Source of the DNA: a virus
IMG/VR virus record: IMGVR_UViG_3300042090_003220
Coordinates: 1-30,710 of that record
Length of the DNA: 30,710 nt
Strand: one strand, 5' to 3'
Shown piece by piece: positions 2,152 to 23,221 of the stretch. The stretch's first letter is position 1. Every line of letters starts with the position of its first letter. The notes under the pieces are model-generated. The model ran no database searches, was not told the origin of the DNA, and saw only the letters and a program-made list of their open reading frames with translations. Both the position numbers and the translations under genes were made by a program.

Positions 2152-4041
2152 ATGGAGACCGTCCAGACATCTGTACTGCCGGGTGGCGGGGACGGGCCGT
2201 CCCCGCTCCAGGAGAACCGCAGTCGTGCGGTGGGGGAGTTGTCGCGGGCGGAGAAGCTGGCGGCGGCGAAGGAGTATTTTAATCCGACGCCGTGTCCGGT
2301 GCTGCCGTGGCTCACAGATGATGAGCTGCTGGCGGCGCTGGACTTGCCGGATGGACCTGACGTGGTGGCCAAGCTGTTCAAGGAGCGGGAGGAGATGATC
2401 TTTGCGGCGAGCGAGGAGGGTGATCCGTTGCGGCATGGGTTTGAGTTGGAGCATTGGAGGGATGCGGACCGGTTGTTGAGCGAGAATCAGTATCTGTACG
2501 TGGCTGGCGGGAACCGGGCGGGGAAATCGGAGTGGGCGGCGAAGCGGTTTGTGGAATCGTGCCTGGCGTACGGGAATTCGATCCGGTGGTGTTTCCAGGC
2601 GACGGAGGACATGAGCCGGGATACGCAGCAGAAGCTGATCTGGAAGTATCTGCCGGCGCATATCAAGGCGCTCAACTTTAAACAGGATCGTCGGCATATC
2701 TTCAAGGTGCGCTGGAGTCTGGCGCAGGGGTTTACGGAGGGGCTTTTGGTGTTGCCAAACAAGACGCAGATCGTTTTTAAGACGTACAAGCAACTGGCGA
2801 GCGAAAATCAGGGGTTGGAACTGGGGGCGAAGCGTGGATCCATCGTGAAGCGGGCGGATGGGTCGATCGTGCCGAACATCGGAGTTTGGCCGGATGAGAA
2901 CATGCCGCTGGACTGGTATAAAACGCTGGTGACGCGGTGCGGCACGCGGGGGGCGAAGATGATCTGGACGTTCACGGCGATCAATGGCATCACGACGACG
3001 ATCAAGGAGTTTTTGGGGACGCCGAAGACGGTGGCGACGCGGCCGGCCGAGCTGCTGAGTGAGCGGGTGAACATTCCGGGCCAGCCGGCGGGGCACATGC
3101 CGTTCATCCAGACGCCGGTGACGGACGGCGGGGCGGTGATTTACTTTTTCACGCAGTGGAATCCGTTTTCCGGCTACGCGGAGAAGGGTGGTGTCAAGAG
3201 CGAGTGCAAGGACAAGTCGAGCGAGTTCATCGAACGGAAGGCCTATGGGTTTGCGCGGGATGTGATGAACAAGGCGTTTCCGCTGTTTGGGGAGGTGAAC
3301 GTGATCAAGGTGAGCGCGCTGCCGGCGAAGCTGACGCGGTACATGTTCACGGACCCGGGCGACGCCTCGAGGAGCTGGGCGAGTTTGTGGGTGGGAGTGG
3401 ATGCGAAGGGGAATCATTACATTTATCGGGACTGGCCGGACGCGCAGACGTACGGGGAGTGGGCGGTGCCGAGTTCCAATCCGCTGCAGCCGGACGGGGA
3501 TCGCGGGGATGCGCAGCGGAGCCAGGGGCTGGGGGTGAAGCAACATGCGGAGGAGTGGAGACGATTAGAAAAGATGGGTATTGGCCACCTCTCCCCGGCC
3601 CTCTCCCCCAGCGGAGAGGGAGACCGGAGCGATCTGAGGAATGAGGACATCTTTGAAAGATATACCGACCCTAGAGCCGCGAACAATCCGCATATTGAGG
3701 AGAACGGGGGGACGAACCTTTATCAGAAGTTTGCGGAGCTGGAGGAGCCGATGATTTTCCGGGGCTGGAGCGGGATTGAGATCGCGATCGGGTACACGCA
3801 TGTGAATTCGCTGCTGTACTGGAACAATGAAAAGCCGCTGAGCTGGCCGGATAATTGCCCGAAGCTGTACGTGACGGAGAATTGCAAGCAGGTGATCTGG
3901 ATGTTCAGCAATTTTACGGGTCAGGGCGGCGCGCGGGCGGGGGGGAAGGATTTTGCGGATTTGGTGAGGGGGATGGCGCTGGCGGACTTGCAATACTATG
4001 AAAGCACCACGTTTCAGAGCAGTGGTGGAGGGGCGTATTGA
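2152..4041 (+). CDS. terL: Terminase large subunit
   Basis: DNA-packaging motor: an N-terminal ATPase pumps DNA into the prohead and a C-terminal RNase-H-like nuclease cuts concatemers. Walker A is GGNRAGKS at residues 119-126. Walker B is best placed at IGVWPDE, with D248 and E249. The coupling motif is TFTAING at 273-279. The nuclease part begins near MFTDPGD with D401, and a late acidic pair D600/D603 sits in KDFADLVRG, as expected for this fold. The length of 629 residues is slightly long; two palindromic elements are read in frame, one near the N-terminus and one around residues 479-491 (HLSPALSPSGEG) between nuclease strands. The ATG directly follows the stop of the upstream gene. The portal lies downstream after three small genes. 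Confidence 0.93.
   Translation: METVQTSVLPGGGDGPSPLQENRSRAVGELSRAEKLAAAKEYFNPTPCPVLPWLTDDELLAALDLPDGPDVVAKLFKEREEMIFAASEEGDPLRHGFELEHWRDADRLLSENQYLYVAGGNRAGKSEWAAKRFVESCLAYGNSIRWCFQATEDMSRDTQQKLIWKYLPAHIKALNFKQDRRHIFKVRWSLAQGFTEGLLVLPNKTQIVFKTYKQLASENQGLELGAKRGSIVKRADGSIVPNIGVWPDENMPLDWYKTLVTRCGTRGAKMIWTFTAINGITTTIKEFLGTPKTVATRPAELLSERVNIPGQPAGHMPFIQTPVTDGGAVIYFFTQWNPFSGYAEKGGVKSECKDKSSEFIERKAYGFARDVMNKAFPLFGEVNVIKVSALPAKLTRYMFTDPGDASRSWASLWVGVDAKGNHYIYRDWPDAQTYGEWAVPSSNPLQPDGDRGDAQRSQGLGVKQHAEEWRRLEKMGIGHLSPALSPSGEGDRSDLRNEDIFERYTDPRAANNPHIEENGGTNLYQKFAELEEPMIFRGWSGIEIAIGYTHVNSLLYWNNEKPLSWPDNCPKLYVTENCKQVIWMFSNFTGQGGARAGGKDFADLVRGMALADLQYYESTTFQSSGGGAY
2186..2206 (+). repeat. 21-base palindrome in the 5' part of terL
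   Basis: GCGGGGACGG, one central G, then CCGTCCCCGC: a perfect inverted repeat read in frame as Gly/Asp/Pro/Ser. It resembles the other short GC palindromes scattered through the window and may be an inserted mobile-type repeat or a structure in the mRNA. Confidence 0.8.
3586..3623 (+). repeat. CT-rich hairpin element translated in frame in terL
   Basis: The element has a C/T-rich left half and then a perfect 8-bp stem, CCCTCTCC at 3599-3606 pairing with GGAGAGGG at 3613-3620 around loop CCCAGC. It encodes HLSPALSPSGEG-type residues that do not look like terminase core. I remember this kind of sequence as a dispersed intergenic repeat of several bacterial phyla; its presence inside an essential packaging gene is unusual. 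Confidence 0.75.
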
Positions 4042-4912: not shown

Positions 4913-4914
4913 AT

Positions 4915-4957
4915 TTTGTCCTGAATTGTCCTTGGTTGGGCTGGATTGTCCGGCGGG
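4915..4957 (+). repeat. 43-base direct repeat, copy 1
   Basis: Matches 8180-8222 at 42 of 43 positions. Each copy carries TTGTCC three times, with TTGGTTGGG between the second and third. Both copies sit immediately after a small gene and upstream of a major head gene. Confidence 0.9.
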
Positions 4958-4960
4958 CTA

Positions 4961-7392: not shown

Positions 7393-7434
7393 GCTAAATG
7401 GCTGAAGAGTTAAATTGTTAAATTGGAAAAACCT
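7393..7434 (+). repeat. GAAGAGTTAAA filler
   Basis: A/T-rich spacer containing GCTGAAGAGTTA at 7401-7412, the same 12-mer as at 13664-13675, followed by repeated TTAAAT words. GGAAAA at 7425-7430 may serve as a weak ribosome-binding site for the ATG at 7435. Confidence 0.55.
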
Positions 7435-7695
7435 ATGGATACATTGCTTTATATCATTTTATTCGCCGCCGGGTGTTTGACCGGATTTGGCTGGGGTGTT
7501 GCATTCGTGAACAAACGAATGAAGAAGCGCGTTCAAGTGGCCGAGGATGTCGCGAAAATCGCTTTGGGAACTTTGGTGGTAACACCGGGCGTCCAGGCGG
7601 GTGGACAACTGGGGAACTCGGGGCTGGAAAGCCCCGAGAACCGGCAGGCTGGAAAGCCTGCCCTACATGGTCAGGGGAGGACGCAGCATTTATGA
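7435..7695 (+). CDS. Small single-span membrane protein with repeat-derived tail
   Basis: An 86-residue protein: residues about 4-24 (LLYIILFAAGCLTGFGWGVAF) are one hydrophobic span, then NKRMKKR forms a positive-inside stop and a short helix (VAEDVAKIALGTL) follows. The rest (GLESPENRQAGKPAL and flanks) is encoded by a copy of the double-hairpin element, read in frame. I chose the ATG at 7435; the TTG at 7423 would add four residues. The stop overlaps the next ATG (ATGA). A holin-like or envelope role is possible from the topology, but nothing in the sequence proves it, and the tail may be dispensable. Confidence 0.6.
   Translation: MDTLLYIILFAAGCLTGFGWGVAFVNKRMKKRVQVAEDVAKIALGTLVVTPGVQAGGQLGNSGLESPENRQAGKPALHGQGRTQHL
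7620..7666 (+). repeat. Double-hairpin element, copy 1
   Basis: Stem 1 is GGGGCT/AGCCCC and stem 2 is GGCAGGCT/AGCCTGCC, each around a GGAA loop, joined by GAGAACC and ending in CTAC. This copy is translated in frame at the C-terminus of the gene starting at 7435. Confidence 0.93.
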
Positions 7696-7958
7696 CGAAC
7701 GAGGAGATCAAGGCGGGGTTGACGAGTTTGGAGCCGGGGCATCCGTTTGTGCTGGCGGTGACGGCGTTGCTGGCGCAGGAGGTGGCGGATGAGCAGAACG
7801 GGGCGATCCAGCCGCAACTGGCGGATGGCAGCCGGCAGTTCAACGCGGGGCGGCTGGCGCACGCGGTGGATTTTCAACGGGTGTTCAACGGCGTGGTCGA
7901 ACAAGCGCGCGGCGAAATGGCGGAAAGGCTCAACGCAGAGGCGCAGAGAAAGGAATGA
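7692..7958 (+). CDS. Hypothetical protein (88 aa), repeat-derived C-terminus
   Basis: I do not recognise this protein. It is helical (TNEEIKAGL; HPFVLAVTALLAQEVADEQNG; AHAVDFQRVFNGVVEQARGEM) and acidic, without Cys or a membrane span. It starts within an ATGA overlap with the upstream stop and itself ends in an ATGA overlap, so the three small genes 7435-8179 form a translationally coupled string after the portal. The last residues (LNAEAQRKE) are encoded by a CGCAGAG-type filler repeat that also supplies the AAAGGA-like ribosome-binding site for the next gene. Confidence 0.6.
   Translation: MTNEEIKAGLTSLEPGHPFVLAVTALLAQEVADEQNGAIQPQLADGSRQFNAGRLAHAVDFQRVFNGVVEQARGEMAERLNAEAQRKE
7932..7953 (+). 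repeat. CGCAGAG filler inside a gene end
   Basis: AACGCAGAGGCGCAGAGAAAGG, split here as AACGCAGAGG and CGCAGAGAAAGG, matches the filler at 18517-18593. It is translated in frame and doubles as the ribosome-binding region of the gene at 7955. Confidence 0.65.
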
Positions 7959-8179
7959 GCTACAAACATTCCAGCCGGTGGAGTTTTGGGGACACGATCT
8001 GGCACAAGGTGACGAAGGACAAGGGGATGATCGTGGCGATCCATCTGCGCAACAACAGTCCGCCGAATTACGGGGTGATCTGGGAGGATGATCGGGAGGA
8101 CAAATGCCACATGGAGTTTGAATTGACGGATGTGGAACCGGCGAAGTTTGAGGCGGAAACGAAGGCTGATGACGCTTAA
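7955..8179 (+). CDS. Small SH3-like beta protein (74 aa)
   Basis: Small protein with alternating beta strands (FGDTIWHKVTKDKGMIVAIHLR, then YGVIWEDD and CHMEFELTDVE). The pattern of a GD turn, a KG turn and a WEDD strand is typical of SH3- or Tudor-like barrels found in small phage proteins; no family name can be given. The ATG overlaps the previous stop and AAAGGA precedes it. It is the last gene before the 43-base repeat and the terminator at 8242. Its role is unknown. Confidence 0.6.
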   Translation: MSYKHSSRWSFGDTIWHKVTKDKGMIVAIHLRNNSPPNYGVIWEDDREDKCHMEFELTDVEPAKFEAETKADDA

Positions 8180-8222
8180 TTTGTCCTGAATTGTCCTTGG
8201 TTGGGCCGGATTGTCCGGCGGG
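8180..8222 (+). repeat. 43-base direct repeat, copy 2
   Basis: Differs from 4915-4957 only by C for T in the GGGC(T/C)GGA part. It starts at the stop of the preceding gene and lies 20 bases before a terminator. Confidence 0.9.
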
Positions 8223-8241
8223 GGATTTACTAAAGTTTTGG

Positions 8242-8279
8242 CCCGTGTTTGGCTCTCACCAGACACGGGTTTTCTGTTT
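8242..8279 (+). terminator. Intrinsic terminator before the scaffold-capsid block
   Basis: CCCGTGT at 8242-8248 pairs with ACACGGG at 8263-8269. A T-G wobble and TGG/CCA continue the stem inward to 11 pairs with loop CTCTCA. TTTTCTGTTT follows directly. It separates the terminase-portal block from the scaffold and capsid genes, so the latter need their own promoter, which I could not identify. Confidence 0.85.
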
Positions 8280-8345
8280 GGTCCCGAGGGGCGTGGCCCC
8301 GAATCCAGACTGGTCTGAGAACACCGACTTGCAGGTTTAAAACGC

Positions 8346-9659
8346 ATGAGCACTCCAAATCCGAAAGCGGCAGCAGGCACCGCTCAACCAACTGCGAAGA
8401 CCGAAACATCCGACGGGCCGCTGATTCCGGGGCGCGCGGATATTCTGAAAAGTTTTGCGGACCTCGCGGAGAGCGGGTCGCGGGCGCTTTCAGAAAAGAA
8501 ACCGGAAGAAAAGGTCGCGCCGGCTGCTGCCGGTGGCGAGAAACCAAAAGTTCTTTCTCAAGTTGAAGCTACTGAAGCGATCGCCGATCCGAAGGCGGAA
8601 GCGACGCAAGAGACGGAAGCGGAAAAGCAAGCACGCGAAACCACGGAGGCGGCCGAACTGGCGGAACGGGCGAAGGCGACGGGGCTAACACCGGTCGAGC
8701 AGAAGACGGCGGAAGATCTGGCGCTGAAGGAGTTGACGGAGCGGGCGACGAAGGCGGGCAAGACGGTCGAGGAGCAGTTCGCATTGGAAGAGGCCGAGGA
8801 AGCGAAGGCGGCCGGCGGCGGCGAGGAGGATCACCTGGCGGAAGATGCGGAGCTGAAAACGGCGCTGACGCCGGAGACCCAGGAGAAGATCAATAAACGC
8901 ATCGGCAAAGAGGTCGCAAAGACGAAGGCGGCCGTGGAAGCCAAGGCGGCGCTGGAGACGAAGCTGGCCGAGGCGGAACGCAAGCTCACGGAAGCTCCCA
9001 GGGCGGTGACGGCCACGGCGACGGGACCGCTGGCGAATGTGACGACGGTCGAAGGACTCCGGGCCGAGGAGGCGAAGGCGAACGAGGCGATCAACCAAGC
9101 CGAGGATCTGTTGCTGGCGCTGGAGGATTCACCGGAAGAGGTGGAGGCCACGCTGAAGACCGCGAAGGTGGCGCTGGACGAGTACACGCCGGCGGCGATG
9201 CGGCGGTACCTGGCCAACCTGAAGGCGAACGCGACAAAGTTTGTGCGGACGCAGATCCCGGCCCGGGCGACGTGGCTGCAGAAGGCGGACGTGGCGGCGG
9301 CGCAGGCGCTGAAGCTGATGCCGGAGCTGGCGGACAAGAACAGTCCGCGGGCGAAGAAGTTCTGGGAGATCACAAACGCGATGCCTTCGATCAAAAACGA
9401 AGCCGGGTGGACGAAGATGGTGGCCGTCCAGGTGCTTGGACTCGAACGGTTGGGCGAGCTGGAAACGGCGGCGGCGAAGCCGGCACCGGTGAAGGTCAAG
9501 CCGCGGGTGAAGCCGGTGGTGATCCCGAGTCCGAAGGGGACGCCGGCGGGCGGGGCGCCCCGGCGGGCAAACAAGAATGAGGTGGATGCGGAGACCGCTT
9601 CAGCAGCTTTGAACGGAGACAAGAACGCGAAATGGAAAATTTTGGAAGGTTTGTTTTGA
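8346..9659 (+). CDS. Scaffolding-like protein
   Basis: A 437-residue highly charged helical protein placed between portal and major capsid protein, the classic site for a scaffold that guides prohead assembly and then leaves. The N-terminal half is Ala/Glu/Lys-rich (KAEATQETEAEKQARETTEAAELAERAKATG and similar coiled-coil stretches). The middle continues as coiled coil (AALETKLAEAERKLTEA; INQAEDLLLALEDSPEEVEATLK). The C-terminal part is basic and Pro-rich (KVKPRVKPVVIPSPKGTP) and may contact the capsid protein, as basic scaffold tails do. No protease motif is seen. The start at 8346 has only a weak AGG upstream. Function rests on position and composition. Confidence 0.7.
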   Translation: MSTPNPKAAAGTAQPTAKTETSDGPLIPGRADILKSFADLAESGSRALSEKKPEEKVAPAAAGGEKPKVLSQVEATEAIADPKAEATQETEAEKQARETTEAAELAERAKATGLTPVEQKTAEDLALKELTERATKAGKTVEEQFALEEAEEAKAAGGGEEDHLAEDAELKTALTPETQEKINKRIGKEVAKTKAAVEAKAALETKLAEAERKLTEAPRAVTATATGPLANVTTVEGLRAEEAKANEAINQAEDLLLALEDSPEEVEATLKTAKVALDEYTPAAMRRYLANLKANATKFVRTQIPARATWLQKADVAAAQALKLMPELADKNSPRAKKFWEITNAMPSIKNEAGWTKMVAVQVLGLERLGELETAAAKPAPVKVKPRVKPVVIPSPKGTPAGGAPRRANKNEVDAETASAALNGDKNAKWKILEGLF

Positions 9660-9663
9660 CGAC

Positions 9664-9710
9664 GGGACTGGAAAGTCCCGTGAACCGGCAGGCTGGAAAG
9701 CCTGCCCTAC
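9664..9710 (+). repeat. Double-hairpin element, copy 2 (compensatory variant)
   Basis: Stem 1 reads GGGACT/AGTCCC here, changed on both arms relative to GGGGCT/AGCCCC so pairing is kept; stem 2 and both GGAA loops are unchanged. It lies between the scaffold-like and capsid genes. Confidence 0.93.
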
Positions 9711-9743
9711 AAAAGAACCGGCCAAGGAAATGGAGACTGTTTT

Positions 9744-10757
9744 ATGAGTCAATTAGTGGAACCGAATCAGGTGGGCAAGCGGGAAATGCTGTTCGACCTG
9801 ATCGCCCTTGACGATTTCAAGGAAAAACCGCTGCTGGCGATGATCCCGAAGGAGCAGAAGCTGGCGAACATGCGGCTGGACTGGCAGGCGGACATCTATG
9901 ATGTGCCGAACACGAGCGGCGTGGCGGATGGTGTGCCGGTGAAGAACATCGAGAACGCGGCGCAGTTCCGCCAGCGGCTGGAGGTGTACGCGCAGCAGTT
10001 CCGCCGGACGTTCGGCGTGGGCCACATCGCGGAGGAGATCTCGAATGTCGCCGGCGCGAAGAGCGGCGAGATGGCGCGGAGCCTGGAAAAGAAGATGGAG
10101 GAGATCAGCCGCGACATCGAGGTGGCGATCGGGAGCGACAATGACACGCAACTGGAGGCCTCGGAGGCGAAGCCGTACAAGATGCGCGGGCTGGGCTCGT
10201 GGTTGAACAACACGGCGCAGGCGACCTTGCCGGTGCCGGCGAACTTCCTGACGCCGGCGACGAGCATCGACACGACGCCGACGCCGAACCTGACGGAAAG
10301 CGTGTTCAAGGGCGTGCTGGAAAGCGTGTTCACCCAATACGGCAAGAGCCAAGATCTGCCGCTGGTCTGCGGGACGGCCTTGAAGAAGGCGATCACGAAC
10401 TTCACCCAGGCGGCGAGCGGGACGACGAACACGCAGGTGGCGCTGCGGACGTTCAACCAGGACATCGACGAAAAGAAAGTCACGACGAACGTGATGATCT
10501 ATGAGGGCGATTTCAACCAGGTGCATCTCCACACGAGTTTGCTGCTGGCGAACACGGGGACGCGGAATCCGAGCGCGGCGGGCAAGGCGCGCGGTTATCT
10601 GATCCCGATGGACCGCTTCGCGCTGAGCTGGGGCTGGCAGCCGAAGGTGACGCCGTTGCCGGAAGACGGTTCCGGGCCGCGGGCGATGTTGACGGCGGTG
10701 CTGGGGTTGATCGACAAAAATCCGTTGATCGGCGGGAAGTTTGCGGCGGCGAATTGA
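9744..10757 (+). CDS. Major capsid protein, DUF5309 (HK97-fold) type
   Basis: Shell-forming protein of the head. The 337 residues follow the DUF5309 pattern: an N-terminal part with PLLAMIPKEQKLANMRLDWQADIYD, a QFRQRL...QQFRRTFGVGHIAEEISNVAG block, a long helix (MARSLEKKMEEISRDIEVAIGSDND), then KMRGLGSWL, and a C-terminal beta region with NVMIYEGDFNQVHLH ending in a receding LTAVLGLIDKNPLIGG. No protease or extra domain is fused. The ATG at 9744 is preceded by AAGGAAATGGAG at a somewhat long distance. It follows the scaffold-like gene, separated by the double-hairpin element. Family recognition is from memory of the conserved pattern. Confidence 0.86.
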   Translation: MSQLVEPNQVGKREMLFDLIALDDFKEKPLLAMIPKEQKLANMRLDWQADIYDVPNTSGVADGVPVKNIENAAQFRQRLEVYAQQFRRTFGVGHIAEEISNVAGAKSGEMARSLEKKMEEISRDIEVAIGSDNDTQLEASEAKPYKMRGLGSWLNNTAQATLPVPANFLTPATSIDTTPTPNLTESVFKGVLESVFTQYGKSQDLPLVCGTALKKAITNFTQAASGTTNTQVALRTFNQDIDEKKVTTNVMIYEGDFNQVHLHTSLLLANTGTRNPSAAGKARGYLIPMDRFALSWGWQPKVTPLPEDGSGPRAMLTAVLGLIDKNPLIGGKFAAAN

Positions 10758-10765
10758 AAAAGTTG

Positions 10766-10786
10766 GCCCGGCCGGGACGGCTGGGC
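10766..10786 (+). repeat. GCCCGGCC hairpin, copy 1
   Basis: GCCCGGCC and GGCTGGGC pair (one G-T) around GGGAC, preceded by AAAAAGTTG. A close relative with the same left flank is at 11439-11459. Confidence 0.7.
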
Positions 10787-10794
10787 GAATTGGT

Positions 10795-10816
10795 CACAGG
10801 CGGGACGCCTGTGCTA
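10795..10816 (+). repeat. Single-hairpin relative of the double-hairpin element
   Basis: CACAGGCG and CGCCTGTG form a perfect 8-bp stem around GGA and the element ends in CTAC, like the larger elements. It lies 26 bases before the ATG at 10843. Confidence 0.75.
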
Positions 10817-10842
10817 CAAACGAAAATTAAAAATAAATTATT

Positions 10843-11283
10843 ATGCAAATCGTACCTTTGGTGATCGAGGAGGCCGCTTACAGCGGGTTCACTCAAAAAA
10901 TCATCCTGACGGCGGCGGACATCATCCTGCTCACGAGCGGGACGGCGGCGAGCATCTTTCCGGACTTCAACGTGGCGACGCAGTTTGCGGCGGGCACGTA
11001 CATCACGGATCTGGCGATCAATGTGAAGACGGCGTTCACCGGGCAGGCGGGCACGTTGACAATGGCGTTGACGGACACGGCGGCGAATGCGTTGAGCGCG
11101 GCGGGCCTGAGCCTGACGGCGGCGGGCTGGCTGGCGAGCTACAACCTGACGAAGCCGATCCTGGAGACGGCCGTGGGCCAGATCCTGGCGACGATCACGA
11201 GCCAGAACGCGATCACGGGCTGGACGGCGGGCGAGGTGCACATTTACCTGGCGTTGAGCGATCTGAACACGCTGGACCGGTGA
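10843..11283 (+). CDS. Probable capsid-associated structural protein (146 aa)
   Basis: I do not recognise a family. Position directly after the major capsid protein and a beta-rich, Ala/Thr-rich sequence (TQKIILTAADIILLTSG; FAAGTYITDLAINVKTAF; AGEVHIYLALSDLNTLD) with no cysteine suggest a head decoration or head-completion protein. The C-terminal strand pattern is regular, as in small beta-barrel cement proteins. The start at 10843 is preceded by an A/T-only leader without a Shine-Dalgarno sequence, nearly the same as the leader at 11485. It ends the second transcription block, 105 bases before a terminator. Confidence 0.62.
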   Translation: MQIVPLVIEEAAYSGFTQKIILTAADIILLTSGTAASIFPDFNVATQFAAGTYITDLAINVKTAFTGQAGTLTMALTDTAANALSAAGLSLTAAGWLASYNLTKPILETAVGQILATITSQNAITGWTAGEVHIYLALSDLNTLDR

Positions 11284-11292
11284 GTGAAACAC

Positions 11293-11339
11293 GGGGCTGG
11301 AAAGCCCCGTGAACCGGCAGGCTGGAAAGCCTGCCCTAC
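11293..11339 (+). repeat. Double-hairpin element, copy 3
   Basis: Canonical form: GGGGCT/AGCCCC and GGCAGGCT/AGCCTGCC stems with GGAA loops, GTGAACC linker, CTAC end. It starts 10 bases after the stop of the preceding gene. Confidence 0.93.
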
Positions 11340-11350
11340 GGCAAATGATT

Positions 11351-11380
11351 GCCCGCGACGGATGGCAAGCCGGCGCGGGC
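11351..11380 (+). other. GC hairpin upstream of terminator
   Basis: GCCCGCG at 11351-11357 pairs with CGCGGGC at 11374-11380 around 16 bases. It may be part of the compound terminator that follows. Confidence 0.5.
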
Positions 11381-11387
11381 GGCTTGG

Positions 11388-11427
11388 GGCGGTCGGTGGT
11401 TTTGCGAGGTTCCACCGGCCGCCTTTT
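11388..11427 (+). terminator. Intrinsic terminator after the capsid genes
   Basis: GGCGGTCGGTGG at 11388-11399 pairs with CCACCGGCCGCC at 11412-11423 (12 pairs, one T-G) around TTTTGCGAGGTT, followed by TTTT and seven A. The A-run would extend the reverse-strand U-tract, but all genes here are forward. It closes the scaffold-capsid block. Confidence 0.85.
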
Positions 11428-11438
11428 AAAAAAAGTTA

Positions 11439-11459
11439 GCCCGGCCGAGACGGGCCGGG
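11439..11459 (+). repeat. GCCCGGCC hairpin, copy 2
   Basis: CCCGGCC and GGCCGGG form a 7-bp stem around GAGACG. The left flank AAAAAGTTAG matches AAAAAGTTGG of copy 1, and both copies are followed by an ACGAAAAT-type leader before a gene. Confidence 0.7.
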
Positions 11460-11484
11460 ATACGGCAACGAAAATCAAACTATT

Positions 11485-11931
11485 ATGAAAACAATGAAAA
11501 CATTATTGGCGGTGGCGGTGACGGCGGCGGCGTTGGTGCTGGGGGCGGCGGTGCAGGCGAGTCCGGGATGGGATAACGGGACGTTGACGAACACGCTCTC
11601 GGTGATCAGCAATGCGACGAGCACGGTGGTGCAGAGCCAGCCGTACTGGGTTTCCCCCGGCGCGGACCTGGCGGTGTTTCCCCGGTTCAACGGGACGGGG
11701 AACACGAACATCGTGTTCGGGTTCGACGTGTATGACGGGCAGAACTGGAGCACGACGCAGCCGCTGGCAGCGACGAACAGCTGCAACTACGGGACGAACG
11801 TGACGGGGATGGCGATCTTCACGAAGGCGCAGCTCGTGGGGGTGCAGCAGATCCGGTGGGATTACACCCAGACGACGGATTTCACGAACATCCAGTTGTA
11901 CGGGATCGATTATCAGTCGTATCACCAATAA
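11485..11931 (+). CDS. Secreted-type protein in the virion gene block (148 aa)
   Basis: Residues 1-25 are a textbook Sec signal peptide: basic start (MKTMK), hydrophobic core (LLAVAVTAAALVLGAAV) and an AVQA-S cleavage site. The mature part is beta-rich with Asn, Thr and Trp (YWVSPGADLAVFPRF; IVFGFDVYDGQNWSTTQPLA; VQQIRWDYTQTTDF) and resembles small jelly-roll or fibre-tip domains, but I cannot name a family. It is the first gene after a terminator. A signal peptide is unexpected for a protein assembled into virions in the cytoplasm. It may have been acquired from the host, act on the cell surface, or use the segment as a membrane anchor. Confidence 0.7.
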   Translation: MKTMKTLLAVAVTAAALVLGAAVQASPGWDNGTLTNTLSVISNATSTVVQSQPYWVSPGADLAVFPRFNGTGNTNIVFGFDVYDGQNWSTTQPLAATNSCNYGTNVTGMAIFTKAQLVGVQQIRWDYTQTTDFTNIQLYGIDYQSYHQ

Positions 11932-11942
11932 GGCCTCTGACA

Positions 11943-11973
11943 GTCCCGGCGTCTGGACGGCGGACGCCGGGAC
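11943..11973 (+). repeat. GTCCCGGCGTC hairpin
   Basis: GTCCCGGCGTC and GACGCCGGGAC form a perfect 11-bp stem around TGGACGGCG, 11 bases after a stop codon. No U-tract follows. The left arm recurs inside the gene at 22565 (22961-22971). Confidence 0.8.
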
Positions 11974-12001
11974 CACTCAATCACGTTAGGAAGAAAAGAA
12001 C

Positions 12002-12457
12002 ATGAGCCAAGGTTTCCAGGTGGATTTGAGCGCGCTGCCGGCGGCGGTGGTGGAGGAGTTTCGGCTGGGCCGGCTGGCGCGGGAGGTGCACACGCTGCGC
12101 CAGGCGCCGAAGGTGCAGGCGCAGATCGCGAAGGAGAATGCGGGGGAGCATCGGGCCATGAACGGGCTGGGGCGGTTGCGGATGGTGGTGGGCCCGGATG
12201 CGTTTCATTACTGGGGGCGTCGGCTGGGGTACGAATGCTGGCGGGACAAGGCGTTTCTGAACGAGTTTGAGCGGGATAATCCGGCGGTGCGGGTGAAGTG
12301 CGGGGGGACGAAAATACAGGTGGGGTATCGGCCGAGCTTGGCGCTGCAGGTGAAATTTCCGGAGCGGGTGGACACGGGGCTGGAAAGCCCCGTGAACCGG
12401 CAGGCTGGAAAGCCTGCCCTACAGGCGGCGGCGGACACCAAACTGATCATCGCATGA
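12002..12457 (+). CDS. Hypothetical phage protein (151 aa), repeat-derived tail
   Basis: The N-terminal half is helical and basic (VVEEFRLGRLAREVHTLRQAPKVQAQIAKE). The middle has an aromatic, conserved-looking stretch (MVVGPDAFHYWGRRLGYECWRDKAFLNEFERDNP) followed by short strands (KIQVGYRPSLALQVKFP). The last part (TGLESPVNRQAGKPAL) is a double-hairpin element read in frame. The ATG at 12002 has AGGAAG upstream. The stop overlaps the next gene by four bases (ATGA). The order before an adaptor-like gene and the aromatic core suggest a head-tail joining accessory, but no family is recognised. Confidence 0.65.
   Translation: MSQGFQVDLSALPAAVVEEFRLGRLAREVHTLRQAPKVQAQIAKENAGEHRAMNGLGRLRMVVGPDAFHYWGRRLGYECWRDKAFLNEFERDNPAVRVKCGGTKIQVGYRPSLALQVKFPERVDTGLESPVNRQAGKPALQAAADTKLIIA
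12376..12422 (+). repeat. Double-hairpin element, copy 4
   Basis: Canonical sequence with GTGAACC linker. It is translated in the same frame as copy 1, giving nearly the same residues at the end of an unrelated protein. Confidence 0.93.
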
Positions 12458-13602
12458 CTTTTGAGACAACAGATTTTGAGGATGTGCTCCGCGAGGCGTG
12501 CGAGGAGGTGGACTTGGATCCGGAGAATTTGAGCGCGCAGGATTTTCGGGCGATGCGGCGGTATGCCAAGAAGCGGCTGGAGGTGGCGTGGGAATATCAT
12601 TTTTGGCCGACGCTGGGGACGGTGGAGCAGCGGTTCTTTCGGCCGGCGTGGTCGGCCACGACGACGTACCAGCAGGCCGCACTAAGTGCGACTGGTACGC
12701 TGCAAGACAACAGCGCCAACGAGGTCTTTTACGCGCCGACGCAGTTGTACTACCTGAGCCTGGCGCCGAACAACCTGAACAATCCGCCGGCGGATATCAA
12801 CGGGAACACGGATAACGCGCATTGGGCGGTGGCGTACGTGGGTTGTTTCAATGCGAATTTTGGGCTGGGCGCCACGGGCGGCTGGCCGGCGATCTTTCCG
12901 GTATACGCGGCGCAGACGTGGGATCCGACGGTGGCGTATGTCCAGGGCAACCAGGTCGGGTATGCCGGCCAGATGTACCAGATGTACGCGGCGGCCGCGG
13001 CGGCGGGCGATCTGCCGACGGATACGGCGAACTGGGGCTTGCTGGTGCCGTTTGATGCGTATGTGAGCTATACGCAGACGAACCAGACGGCGATCGGGAT
13101 CGTGCAGGCGGCGTACACGGCGGATCCGCGGACGACGACGCGGGGGCATGAGGTGAACTGGGATCTGTCCGAGCGCGGGGTGCAGGTGCATACGCCGTGT
13201 CCGTTCATCTGGCTGGATTACCGGGGGCGCTGCGTGAAGCTGGGCGGGGAGATCTGGAACGGGGAGGCGGCGTACGCGGCCGGGGCGATGATGTATTACT
13301 CGAGCGCGAGCACGCCGGGGAACTTTTACACGGCGGCGAGCGGGACGGCGGCGGGGCAGAGTCCGGACACGGCTCCAAACGTCTGGACGGTGGTGGCGAT
13401 CCCCCGGCTGTTTCACAAGTACCTGGTCCTGGGCATGGCGGCGGATTACATGAAAGCCGGTTTAGGATCGGGGCTCAATCAGTTTCAAGGTTCGCAGGGG
13501 CAGCTGCTGTTGAACCTGGCGCAGACGGCGTTGGACGATCAGAAGTCGTTGCTGGTGGGGCAGCAGGGGCAGCGGATCAAGACGGTGGTGCAAACAAGGT
13601 GA
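12454..13602 (+). CDS. Adaptor-like protein with carbohydrate-binding-like modules
   Basis: Residues 1-60 (TTDFEDVLREACEEVDLD; FRAMRRYAKKRLEVAWEYHFWP) and 315-382 (LFHKYLVLGMAADYMKAGLG; LLLNLAQTALDDQKSLL) are helical and resemble the two halves of a podovirus head-tail adaptor (T7 gp11 or P22 gp4 type), which seals the portal and seats the nozzle. Between them are three beta modules. The clearest, about 155-195, has TWDPTVAYVQGNQVGYAGQMYQM and GDLPTDTANW, the pattern of chitin-binding CBM5/12 modules; looser copies are at about 65-122 and 266-312. The total of 382 residues is about twice the usual adaptor. The gene at 17896 looks like a simple adaptor of the same type. Adaptor role and module identity are both inferred. 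Confidence 0.6.
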   Translation: MTFETTDFEDVLREACEEVDLDPENLSAQDFRAMRRYAKKRLEVAWEYHFWPTLGTVEQRFFRPAWSATTTYQQAALSATGTLQDNSANEVFYAPTQLYYLSLAPNNLNNPPADINGNTDNAHWAVAYVGCFNANFGLGATGGWPAIFPVYAAQTWDPTVAYVQGNQVGYAGQMYQMYAAAAAAGDLPTDTANWGLLVPFDAYVSYTQTNQTAIGIVQAAYTADPRTTTRGHEVNWDLSERGVQVHTPCPFIWLDYRGRCVKLGGEIWNGEAAYAAGAMMYYSSASTPGNFYTAASGTAAGQSPDTAPNVWTVVAIPRLFHKYLVLGMAADYMKAGLGSGLNQFQGSQGQLLLNLAQTALDDQKSLLVGQQGQRIKTVVQTR

Positions 13603-13699
13603 AGAGTTACATGAGTTGAATGGTTAAATGAGTTAAATGGTGGAAAAACTGAAGAAGTAACTCGCTGAAGAGTTACATGGTTAAATAGAAAGAAAATTT
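13603..13699 (+). repeat. GAAGAGTTACATGGTTAAATG filler array
   Basis: About 97 bases of A/T-rich short repeats: GAAGAGTTACATG occurs twice (13601 and 13667) with GGTTAAATGAGTTAAATGG words between. GCTGAAGAGTTA is shared with 7401-7412. AGAAAG near the end may be a weak ribosome-binding site. No gene is seen here. Confidence 0.7.
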
Positions 13700-17295: not shown

Positions 17296-17828
17296 GTTCC
17301 TGGATCCAACTGCCGGATGGGTACACGTTTGCGCTGGAGGCGATGCGGACGATCGTGGCGGATGGGGCGGCGGTGGTGCTGACGCCGGCGGACGGGACGC
17401 CGGCGGTGCGGTGGGACGCGACGGATGCGCGGTATGCGGCGCTGGTGATGACGGCGCTGCAGGGGATCATGACTTCGCCCTCGGGTTTCCAGACGGTGAC
17501 GCCGGCGCCGATCATCGACAGCGTGGTGTTGTCCCAGGAGGACATCACGCTGGCGACGGTGACGATCACGGGGTGCGGGTTCTATGCGCGGACGGTGGGC
17601 AAGCTGTATTTTGAGGATACGAGCGGCGGCCAGGACAGCAACGGGTATTACGACGTGTGCGCGTATGTGAACGGGCAGAGCCTGACGGGGACGTACGGGG
17701 GGGCGGGCGACGGGAATCTGTCGCAAGGCGGTCCGGGCGTGCTGATCTATTACCAGGACACGCTGGGGACGAAGAGCAACGTGATCAACGGGACGAATGT
17801 GAGCGGGACGCAGGTGACGATTCCGTAG
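17292..17828 (+). CDS. Beta-rich hypothetical virion protein (178 aa)
   Basis: Starts in an ATGA overlap with the DUF1353 gene, so the two are translated together. The N-terminal part (WIQLPDGYTFALEAMRTIVADGAAVVLTP; YAALVMTALQGIM) is mixed; the C-terminal part has IPT/Ig-like character (PIIDSVVLSQEDITLATVTITGCGFYARTVGKLYFED; VNGQSLTGTYGG; VIYYQDTLG). Such domains are common in tail-surface proteins. I do not recognise a family. The sequence is Gly/Thr-rich without a signal peptide, and its stop is followed by a double-hairpin element. Confidence 0.6.
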   Translation: MSSWIQLPDGYTFALEAMRTIVADGAAVVLTPADGTPAVRWDATDARYAALVMTALQGIMTSPSGFQTVTPAPIIDSVVLSQEDITLATVTITGCGFYARTVGKLYFEDTSGGQDSNGYYDVCAYVNGQSLTGTYGGAGDGNLSQGGPGVLIYYQDTLGTKSNVINGTNVSGTQVTIP

Positions 17829-17843
17829 TTGAGGGCGAAACAC

Positions 17844-17890
17844 GGGGCTGGAAAGCCCCGTGAACCGGCAGGCTGGAAAGCCTGCCCTAC
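17844..17890 (+). repeat. Double-hairpin element, copy 5
   Basis: Canonical copy with GTGAACC linker, ending in CTAC only five bases before the ATG at 17896, so the element itself occupies the ribosome-binding region of the adaptor-like gene. Confidence 0.93.
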
Positions 17891-17895
17891 GATAA

Positions 17896-18516
17896 ATGAA
17901 GACGGTCACTTACAACGACATCATGTTTGCCGCCGCCGAGGTGGCGGGAAGGACGCGTGACAAGATTCCGCCGAGCGAGGCGATCATGCTGCAGGCGTTT
18001 CTGGCGACGGCGCTGCGGGACATCTGGCAGGGGGCGTACCAGTGGCCGGAACTGATCCCGGCGATCGTGAGCGTGCAGACGACGAACCGGGTCTTCTCGA
18101 AACAGGAAGGCAACGCGGGCGAGATGGGGGACATTCTAGGCGTCTGGACGAATAATCCGCAGGTGACGACCTCCTATGTGATGTGCCGGTTCTATGAGCA
18201 GAATGACGCGGTGCAGCTCGAGGACGGGGGCGGGACGGTGTGGGTGGAGTACATGCTGCCGCGGCCGGATCTGATGCAGGTGCCGGCAAACCAACTGGCG
18301 GCGTATGCGATCCCGGACCGGTTCCGGAATTATCTCGTCTATGTGGCGGCGGGAAACCTGGTGCGCGCGGACGGGCAGATGGCGCAGGGGGATGAAATCC
18401 TGGCGCTGGCGCAAAGCGAGATCTCGACGGAGATCCGGCGGCTGGTGGATGTGCCGCGGCGGGCGGTGAAGAACCGGAATATTTATGAGGTGCATCCGCA
18501 GACACCTCCCCAATAA
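17896..18516 (+). CDS. Head-tail adaptor-like protein (206 aa)
   Basis: Probable connector between portal and nozzle. N-terminal helices (SEAIMLQAFLATALRDIWQGAYQWPEL) and C-terminal helices (PDRFRNYLVYVAAGNLVRADGQMAQGDEILALAQSEISTEIRRLVD) enclose a small beta region (YVMCRFYEQNDAVQLEDGGGTVWVEYML), the arrangement of T7 gp11/P22 gp4-like adaptors of about 200 residues. It directly precedes the nozzle-like gene, the usual order. The gene at 12454 shares the helical frame but carries large insertions, so either may be the structural adaptor and the other a modified relative. No Shine-Dalgarno sequence; a double-hairpin element ends just before the start. Confidence 0.65.
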   Translation: MKTVTYNDIMFAAAEVAGRTRDKIPPSEAIMLQAFLATALRDIWQGAYQWPELIPAIVSVQTTNRVFSKQEGNAGEMGDILGVWTNNPQVTTSYVMCRFYEQNDAVQLEDGGGTVWVEYMLPRPDLMQVPANQLAAYAIPDRFRNYLVYVAAGNLVRADGQMAQGDEILALAQSEISTEIRRLVDVPRRAVKNRNIYEVHPQTPPQ

Positions 18517-22564: not shown

Positions 22565-23221
22565 ATGAAACTGCAACCATTCTTTATCACCGGGATCCCG
22601 CGGACGCGGACGGCGTGGCTGGCGAATTTCTTCACCACGAAGAATTCGTTTTGCTGGCATGATGCGATGAAGGGCGGCTGGCGCGCGGAGCACGTTCATG
22701 ACAAGTTGATGCAGGCGAAGCTGGCGGGGAATTATTATTGCGGCGATGCGGACAGCGGGCTGCTGCTGGTGATGGAGCGGATGAATGAGATCTTTCCCCA
22801 GGCGCGGTGGTTGTTTGTGCGGACGACGCCGGCGGACGCGGCGCGGAGCTACCGGGAATATTTTACGGAAGGGAAGGAATATCCCGGAGTGCCGGCGGGG
22901 ACGGACCTCGAGGAGATGATGGAGAACATCCACGAAAAGTATGAGGCGGCCTTGGCGAGCGTCCCGGCGTCCAGACGCCTGGAGGTGGACAAGACGGACC
23001 TGGACCATCCGAAGGTGATGGAGTCGGTGTGGCGTTGGCTGGTGCCGGGGCTGAGCTGGGATCCGTTGCGGTATGAGTTGTTGAATGAGCTGGCGGTGAA
23101 TGTGCTGGCGAGGAAAGTTAAGGTGGCGGCGTTACCCAATCAACTGGGGGCTGGAAAGCCCCCAGCACCGGCAGGCTGGAAAGCCTGCCCTACGGCGGAG
23201 CCGTTGAGCGGGCCGATTTGA
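22565..23221 (+). CDS. Sulfotransferase-like protein (218 aa)
   Basis: The N-terminus FFITGIPRTRTAWLANFFT (G10, R13, R15, T16) has the form of the 5'-phosphosulfate loop of PAPS-dependent sulfotransferases, GxPRSGT-like, and residues DSGLLLVMERMNEIFPQARWLFVRTTPADAARSYREYF fit the second, 3'-phosphate-binding block (strand, R, then S). It may transfer sulfate to a cell-surface sugar or to a virion component. The length is short for the family. The C-terminal tail (GAGKPPAPAGWKACPT) is a double-hairpin element read in frame, and ASVPASRRLE comes from another palindrome. The GNAT-like gene follows after 4 bases. A kinase of the same P-loop class is the main alternative. Confidence 0.62.
   Translation: MKLQPFFITGIPRTRTAWLANFFTTKNSFCWHDAMKGGWRAEHVHDKLMQAKLAGNYYCGDADSGLLLVMERMNEIFPQARWLFVRTTPADAARSYREYFTEGKEYPGVPAGTDLEEMMENIHEKYEAALASVPASRRLEVDKTDLDHPKVMESVWRWLVPGLSWDPLRYELLNELAVNVLARKVKVAALPNQLGAGKPPAPAGWKACPTAEPLSGPI
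22961..22983 (+). repeat. GTCCCGGCGTC palindrome inside a gene
   Basis: GTCCCGGCGTC matches the left arm of the hairpin at 11943-11973; GGCGTC, CA and GACGCC form the local palindrome here. It is read in frame in the sulfotransferase-like gene. Confidence 0.65.
23146..23193 (+). repeat. Double-hairpin element, copy 6 (extended stem)
   Basis: Stem 1 is lengthened on both arms to GGGGGCT/AGCCCCC, stem 2 is GGCAGGCT/AGCCTGCC, linker AGCACC. It is translated in a different frame from copies 1 and 4, at the C-terminus of the sulfotransferase-like gene. Confidence 0.92.

Follow-up and report, generated by a model that had tools for sequence, protein, structure and literature searches.

GTAG-tagged REP units, probably copied from Verrucomicrobia hosts, lie at gene ends of a phage genome and give predicted proteins recurrent tails

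Why do unrelated proteins of one virus carry near-identical residues close to their C-termini? The window analyzed here, the whole of a virus record of 30,710 bases, has a head-gene order of phage type (a ParB-like protein, a terminase-like ORF, a portal-like ORF, and an SU10-type major capsid protein; the labels "terminase" and "portal" follow from gene order and length, with 0 Pfam profile matches for either). It holds six copies of a 50-nt double-hairpin unit, every one on the plus strand (Table 1). A sequence-only reading had copies 1, 4, and 6 translated in frame close to the C-terminus of three proteins that are unrelated to each other, and this is what we saw in the translated ORFs: copy 1 yields ...GNSGLESPENRQAGKPAL followed by HGQGRTQHL*, copy 4 yields ...ERVDTGLESPVNRQAGKPAL followed by QAAADTKLIIA*, and copy 6 yields ...GAGKPPAPAGWKACPT followed by AEPLSGPI*, with PAGWKACPT as the part coded by the element. 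Copies 1 and 4 indeed share a frame and give nearly the same tail, and copy 6 is read in a different open frame. The element-coded residues do stand near the protein ends, as had been claimed, but not at the very end, as 8-11 unrelated residues follow in each case; likewise, the claim that the element lacks stops holds for two of the three sense frames (four of all six), but the third sense frame has a TGA. Because only two sense frames are open, a shared frame for two of the three translated copies is unsurprising. Copies 2, 3, and 5 are untranslated and begin 1, 6, and 12 nt beyond a stop codon. The membrane-type ORF that carries copy 1 ends in a TGA overlapping the ATG of the gene that follows (7692), the ORF with copy 4 has an ATGA overlap with its neighbor (12454), and the sulfotransferase-like label of the ORF with copy 6 reflects a Sulfotransfer_3 match at E 0.0046, under the Pfam cut-off.

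Table 1. Repeat units and repeat-bearing ORFs of the window
Feature	Position	Strand	Description
In-frame insert, terminase-like ORF	3580..3639	+	about 20 codons (GHLSPALSPSGEGDRSDL..); separate palindromic family (CCTCTCCCCGGCCCTCTCCC)
Small membrane-type ORF	7435..7695	+	element-coded from about residue 62 (SGLESPENRQAGKPAL), then HGQGRTQHL
REP unit copy 1	7617..7666	+	inside ORF 7435-7695; CTCGGGGC-TGGAA-AGCCCCGAG / AACC / GGCAGGC-TGGAA-AGCCTGCC / CTAC
REP unit copy 2	9661..9710	+	intergenic, 1 nt past stop of ORF 8346-9659; precedes major capsid gene
Second, different double-hairpin REP-like unit	10766..10814	+	GGCCGGGACGGCTGGGC / GTCACAGGCGGGACGCCTGTG / CTAC; intergenic, after major capsid gene
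REP unit copy 3	11290..11339	+	intergenic, 6 nt past stop at 11283
151-aa conserved phage protein	12002..12457	+	element-coded TGLESPVNRQAGKPAL, then QAAADTKLIIA; homologues known
REP unit copy 4	12373..12422	+	inside ORF 12002-12457
REP unit copy 5	17841..17890	+	intergenic, 12 nt past stop at 17828, 5 nt ahead of ATG at 17896
Sulfotransferase-like ORF	22565..23221	+	extended by copy 6
REP unit copy 6	23144..23193	+	inside 3' end of ORF 22565-23221, other open frame (PAGWKACPT)

Each unit consists of a variable hairpin 1 (8-9 bp), a linker ACC or AACC, an invariant hairpin 2 (GGCAGGCT-GGAA-AGCCTGCC), and CTAC. All six copies end in CCCTAC, which places GTAG on the minus strand next to a stem of 8 bp with a GGAA loop. 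The repeat stands far above chance, with 20 near-matches to the GGCTGGAAAGCC core in the window vs 3.7 expected, and the fold z-scores of the copies range from -4.8 to -6.8. On the other strand of the window, the unit core was absent at ≤3 mismatches; a reversed control pattern gave 0 matches. Every copy lies between 80 nt 5' of and 12 nt 3' of a stop codon (the translated ones within roughly the last 85 nt of their ORF); such zones, whose limits were set after the data were seen, make up 8.5% of the window, giving p about 4e-7 for random placement of all six. The copies form no inverted pairs: all six are single plus-strand units, separated from one another by more than 1 kb. Intrinsic terminator hairpins resemble them in being GC-rich and just past stop codons, but the units have no T-run, carry a CTAC tag, and add a second hairpin; inspection by eye led us to reject a terminator identity because the 3' T-run is absent. 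An Rfam search of the window gave 0 matches above the gathering score, and 0 tRNAs were found. Two further repeats were noted in the window: a direct repeat of ~43 nt (TTTGTCCTGAATTGTCCTTGGTTGGGCYGGATTGTCCGGCGGG) at 4914-4960 and 8178-8222, both close to gene ends, which may be a promoter or regulatory region of the phage, and an AT-rich CTGAAGAGTTAAATTGTTAAATTG-like repeat in two gene gaps (7395-7431 and 13592-13694) of a genome that is otherwise GC-rich.

GTAG-tagged REPs, and REPINs with RAYT transposases, were reportedly described by Nunvar in 2010 and by Bertels and Rainey in 2011. Single REPs are also common in bacteria. A GTAG REP is defined as a palindromic stem-loop of 6-13 bp with an unpaired GTAG at one end. 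The phage repeat, which on the minus strand reads as GTAG first and then two stem-loops, is such a GTAG-tagged REP unit and corresponds to one half of a REPIN. When 85,000 bacterial and archaeal genomes were scanned, the same double unit turned up in the Verrucomicrobia metagenome-assembled genome PSRM01 (G001), where the part AACC-hairpin 2-CTAC is identical to that of the phage and hairpin 1 occurs in many variants. This 7.7-Mb genome has 207 copies at ≤3 mismatches (0 for the reversed-pattern control), and in the loci read, 42 units stood in inverted pairs and 6 were single. Of 146 genomes related to G001, only 8 carried the unit. In the combined set of phage and bacterial copies, the stem of hairpin 1 is maintained by complementary changes: we counted 21 double-change cells vs 4.4 after shuffling, a value reached in 0 of 500 shuffles, with double changes at six of the nine pairs of the helix.

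A linked RAYT gene was found in two of the related genomes, G121 and G064. In G121 (contig C423), a Y1 transposase gene has one REPIN on each side; in G064 (contig C165), there are two tandem RAYT gene copies, the first of them broken, each followed by a REPIN whose GTAG supplies the TAG stop of the RAYT gene. The G064 protein passes the NCBIfam model NF047646, REP-associated tyrosine transposase, at 87.3 bits (cut-off 80) and matches PDB 4er8, TnpA-REP. In G001, the genome with the highest copy number, no RAYT gene was seen to adjoin the element in the loci read, and we noticed no transposase in the phage window. The 146 genomes related to G001 gave 0 matches to the phage capsid protein and 0 prophage relatives; the element had 0 matches in GenBank phage and plasmid collections, and, among 2.9 million viral contigs, the exact element or exact double core occurred only in the present record.

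Our unit shares with known GTAG REPs and REPINs the terminal GTAG by a stem-loop, a high copy number in bacteria, inverted pairs, compensatory stems, a REPIN-linked RAYT gene, a preference for gene 3' ends, and some copies in ORFs and C-termini; it differs from them in its phage setting, its single units, its two tandem hairpins, and its one orientation. In the PVC superphylum, GTAG REPs lie mostly downstream of genes and some lie in ORFs, including C-termini (Di Nocera 2013, PMC3733652). Words beginning with "phage" had 0 occurrences in PMC3733652, and titles, abstracts, and matched passages of the literature yielded no account of REPs in a phage genome. As described in PMC3733652, Rickettsia palindromic elements likewise sit in frame in unrelated proteins and are tolerated, but those that fall within this scheme are CGTC-tagged and belong to Rickettsia, in contrast to the GTAG tag, the RAYT link, and the phage carrier seen here. 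Hence, the principle was already known from translated REPs in bacteria and in-frame palindromes in Rickettsia, while the phage setting, the single units, the one orientation, and the repeated use of the same permissive sites set the present case apart.

Do the translated copies matter as peptides? The sequence-only reading had left open whether the tails were a tolerated by-product or a portable peptide tag, in which GLESPxNRQAGKPAL would be functional and common to several phage proteins. A near-same tail on two unrelated proteins speaks for a tag, as does the occurrence of the same peptide within a host protein family: in G064, three paralogous proteins carry an in-frame REPIN between domains that gives the same peptide GQESPENRQAGKPA. 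These proteins (L158, L163, and L171) are large paralogues, labeled FG-GAP-like repeat proteins by eye, whose near-identical in-frame REPIN (PPFQAAGSGGFPAARVSGQESPENRQAGKPA) occupies one common position between domains, in contrast to much divergence elsewhere. Past the common GLESP, however, copies 1 and 4 code for tails that differ solely by an E/V exchange, and the base responsible restores pairing with the opposite stem arm (CTC..GAG vs CAC..GTG). As the one variable residue is a stem-compensating change, it is the hairpin that is conserved, not the peptide. Moreover, the frame used in copy 6 is a different one, copies 2, 3, and 5 (half of the total) are untranslated, the related phage L010 has an unrelated peptide at the same place, and the element occurs in no virus record but the present one among those searched. 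We found no conservation of the peptide independent of the DNA hairpin, and relatives occur without the peptide. The tag was therefore rejected on account of the E/V compensation, the differing frames, and the untranslated half of the copies, and we regard it as extremely improbable.

The other option, a tolerated by-product, gained ground from related phages, both from element-free relatives of the copy-4 gene and from clade members with other repeats in frame at permissive places. The expectation that insertion near a stop codon lengthens the protein could be followed in the copy-4 gene by comparison with relatives lacking the element, and was borne out: homologues in L007, L011, and L151 end at about residue 122 of the 151-aa window protein (with KRFSKSYNL in L007, KRFSKKYGND in L151, and QRFHKSYG in L011), which is about where the element starts. 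The same alignment columns read VKFPER in the window and ARFPEK in L010, and the window element begins about one residue later. In all three element-free phages, the stop lies at or overlaps the start of the next gene, and so does the window stop that follows the insert. This gene end in L010 holds a different double-hairpin repeat, partly decayed and in frame as TAGGAPTLTPGAGVLPR, intact copies of which stand directly upstream of the homologue of the 7692 gene in L009, L010, and L178; L008 provides an empty site for this repeat, with its coding flank CGGAACGTACACCA-TTGA almost abutting the next ATG. The double hairpin of L010 and L178 had 0 matches at 3 mismatches in 293 related bacterial genomes. 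For the small membrane protein (copy 1), the sulfotransferase-like gene (copy 6), and the gene after copy 5, the collections searched contained no relatives. Judged from these alignments, the by-product reading of the predicted tails is well supported: the tails probably have no meaning of their own and, we infer, would be made as protein and be neutral.

Repeats of several families recur at such permissive places in the clade. The in-frame insert of the terminase-like ORF gives LSPALSPSGEG... and is absent from L011. Members of its family were also seen twice in L008, in the portal linker and just past the portal stop (about 3930-3975). One variable portal linker carries three different in-frame repeats in L180, L178, and L008, and is repeat-free in L007, L152, L177, L011, and L151. 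The L180 repeat family was present in 48 of 293 related genomes of bacteria, against a control count of 0, and phages of this clade therefore seem, by this sequence match, to harbor REPs of the bacteria that they infect, although the L010/L178 repeat had no bacterial match. L180 has a second tagged hairpin family (CGGTCGCAGCGCGACCG..CCACC) at 843, 4627, and 5455, two copies of which lie within a scaffold-like gene. The window has an extra hairpin AGTCCCGGCGTCTGGAC..GGACGCCGGGACCAC with a CCAC end at 11944-11976, downstream of an ORF ending at 11931.

We propose, with high confidence, that the unit is a GTAG REP of a Verrucomicrobia RAYT/REP system that was copied from host chromosomes, kept at harmless sites, and translated at some of them as a by-product. 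A host RAYT, acting on single-stranded DNA, would have transferred REP units to the phage genome, by copying or by moving them, probably in the course of infection. Units within essential coding sequence would be lost, and gene ends and flexible linkers would retain theirs, so that copies would survive only where they are harmless, either in gaps right past stops or among a gene's final codons. A copy just before a stop would make the protein ~17 residues longer and keep the frame, because two of the three sense frames are stop-free. Some observations run against such capture: the phage units are single, but in bacteria the inverted pair is considered the mobile form (PMC3116915); no RAYT gene stands beside the element in G001; the phage capsid protein had no match in the 146 genomes related to G001; and simple random capture does not predict one orientation.

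Multiplication within the phage, following a single host capture, offers another account of how six copies arose, and it is partly compatible with host capture. It would fit the identity of the linker core and second hairpin in all six copies, their common orientation, and the extra flanking bases common to copies 3 and 5 (97% over 63 nt). These two copies (11286-11348 and 17837-17899), with GAAA upstream and AAATGA downstream included in the match, look as if one derived from the other, and spread from copy 3 to copy 5 within the phage is possible. Copies 1, 2, and 6, however, have 5' hairpins that differ in three separate compensatory ways, as in bacteria, which favors several captures, and homologous recombination hardly spreads short repeats across unrelated junctions. 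As a general account of the copies, spread by recombination of phage-owned repeats thus appears improbable.

The orientation of the units requires more than random capture. In the window and in L008, L010, L152, L178, and L180, the credible CTAC- or CCAC-tagged hairpins have the tag 3' on the coding strand, and the minus-strand matches are few and look spurious. The phage pattern differs from that of bacterial loci between co-directional genes, where units had the same orientation in 11 cases vs the opposite in 21; the contrast of 7/7 phage with 11/32 bacterial units gives about 0.002 by hand calculation, although the bacterial counts, made with a rough gene caller on mixed taxa, are indicative only. 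One-strand insertion in a unidirectionally replicating phage and selection on the transcript would both explain this bias. With regard to the latter, a double hairpin at gene ends could have been selected as functional RNA, to stabilize mRNA 3' ends or, as a spacer, to control the next gene. Such a role would suit the six copies and the 10766-10814 unit, all co-oriented with transcription at gene 3' ends, their very stable RNA folds with GGAA loops, the unlike bacterial orientations, and the similar tagged hairpins in related phages, which have the same orientation and in part share junctions. Yet the lack of a T-run means that they are not intrinsic terminators, nothing is found at the same junctions in L007, L011, L151, and L177, and the GC-rich REPs of bacteria are just as conserved, for different reasons. 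Clade repeats also sit within the coding sequences of portal, terminase, and scaffold genes, where a 3'-end role makes no sense. We consider functional RNA quite improbable as the main explanation, but a slight regulatory effect may have been added to a selfish origin. One-strand insertion leads to a more specific, still doubtful extension of the host-capture proposal, namely that a host RAYT copies single REPs into one strand of the replicating phage, which would account for the single orientation, and that this phage clade regularly serves as a landing site for the REPs of whichever bacterium it infects.

REPs and their transposases are regarded as a domesticated part of bacterial chromosomes that is inherited vertically. 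The presence of several fresh-looking REPs in one phage, and of other families at the same permissive positions in its relatives, suggests that REPs enter mobile DNA. If the landing-site reading is true, phages could ferry REPs between bacterial lineages and would thereby provide a horizontal route for REPINs that current models hold to be unlikely; in PMC8049555, modelers consider replicative horizontal spread of REPINs unlikely. REP repeats could also mark the hosts of uncultured phages. For annotation, PAGWKACPT, NRQAGKPAL, or LSPALSPSGEG in predicted proteins of the PVC group or of phages should be taken as a warning that the residues are repeat-derived. The translated copies also offer clear-cut examples of mobile DNA that has turned into protein sequence.
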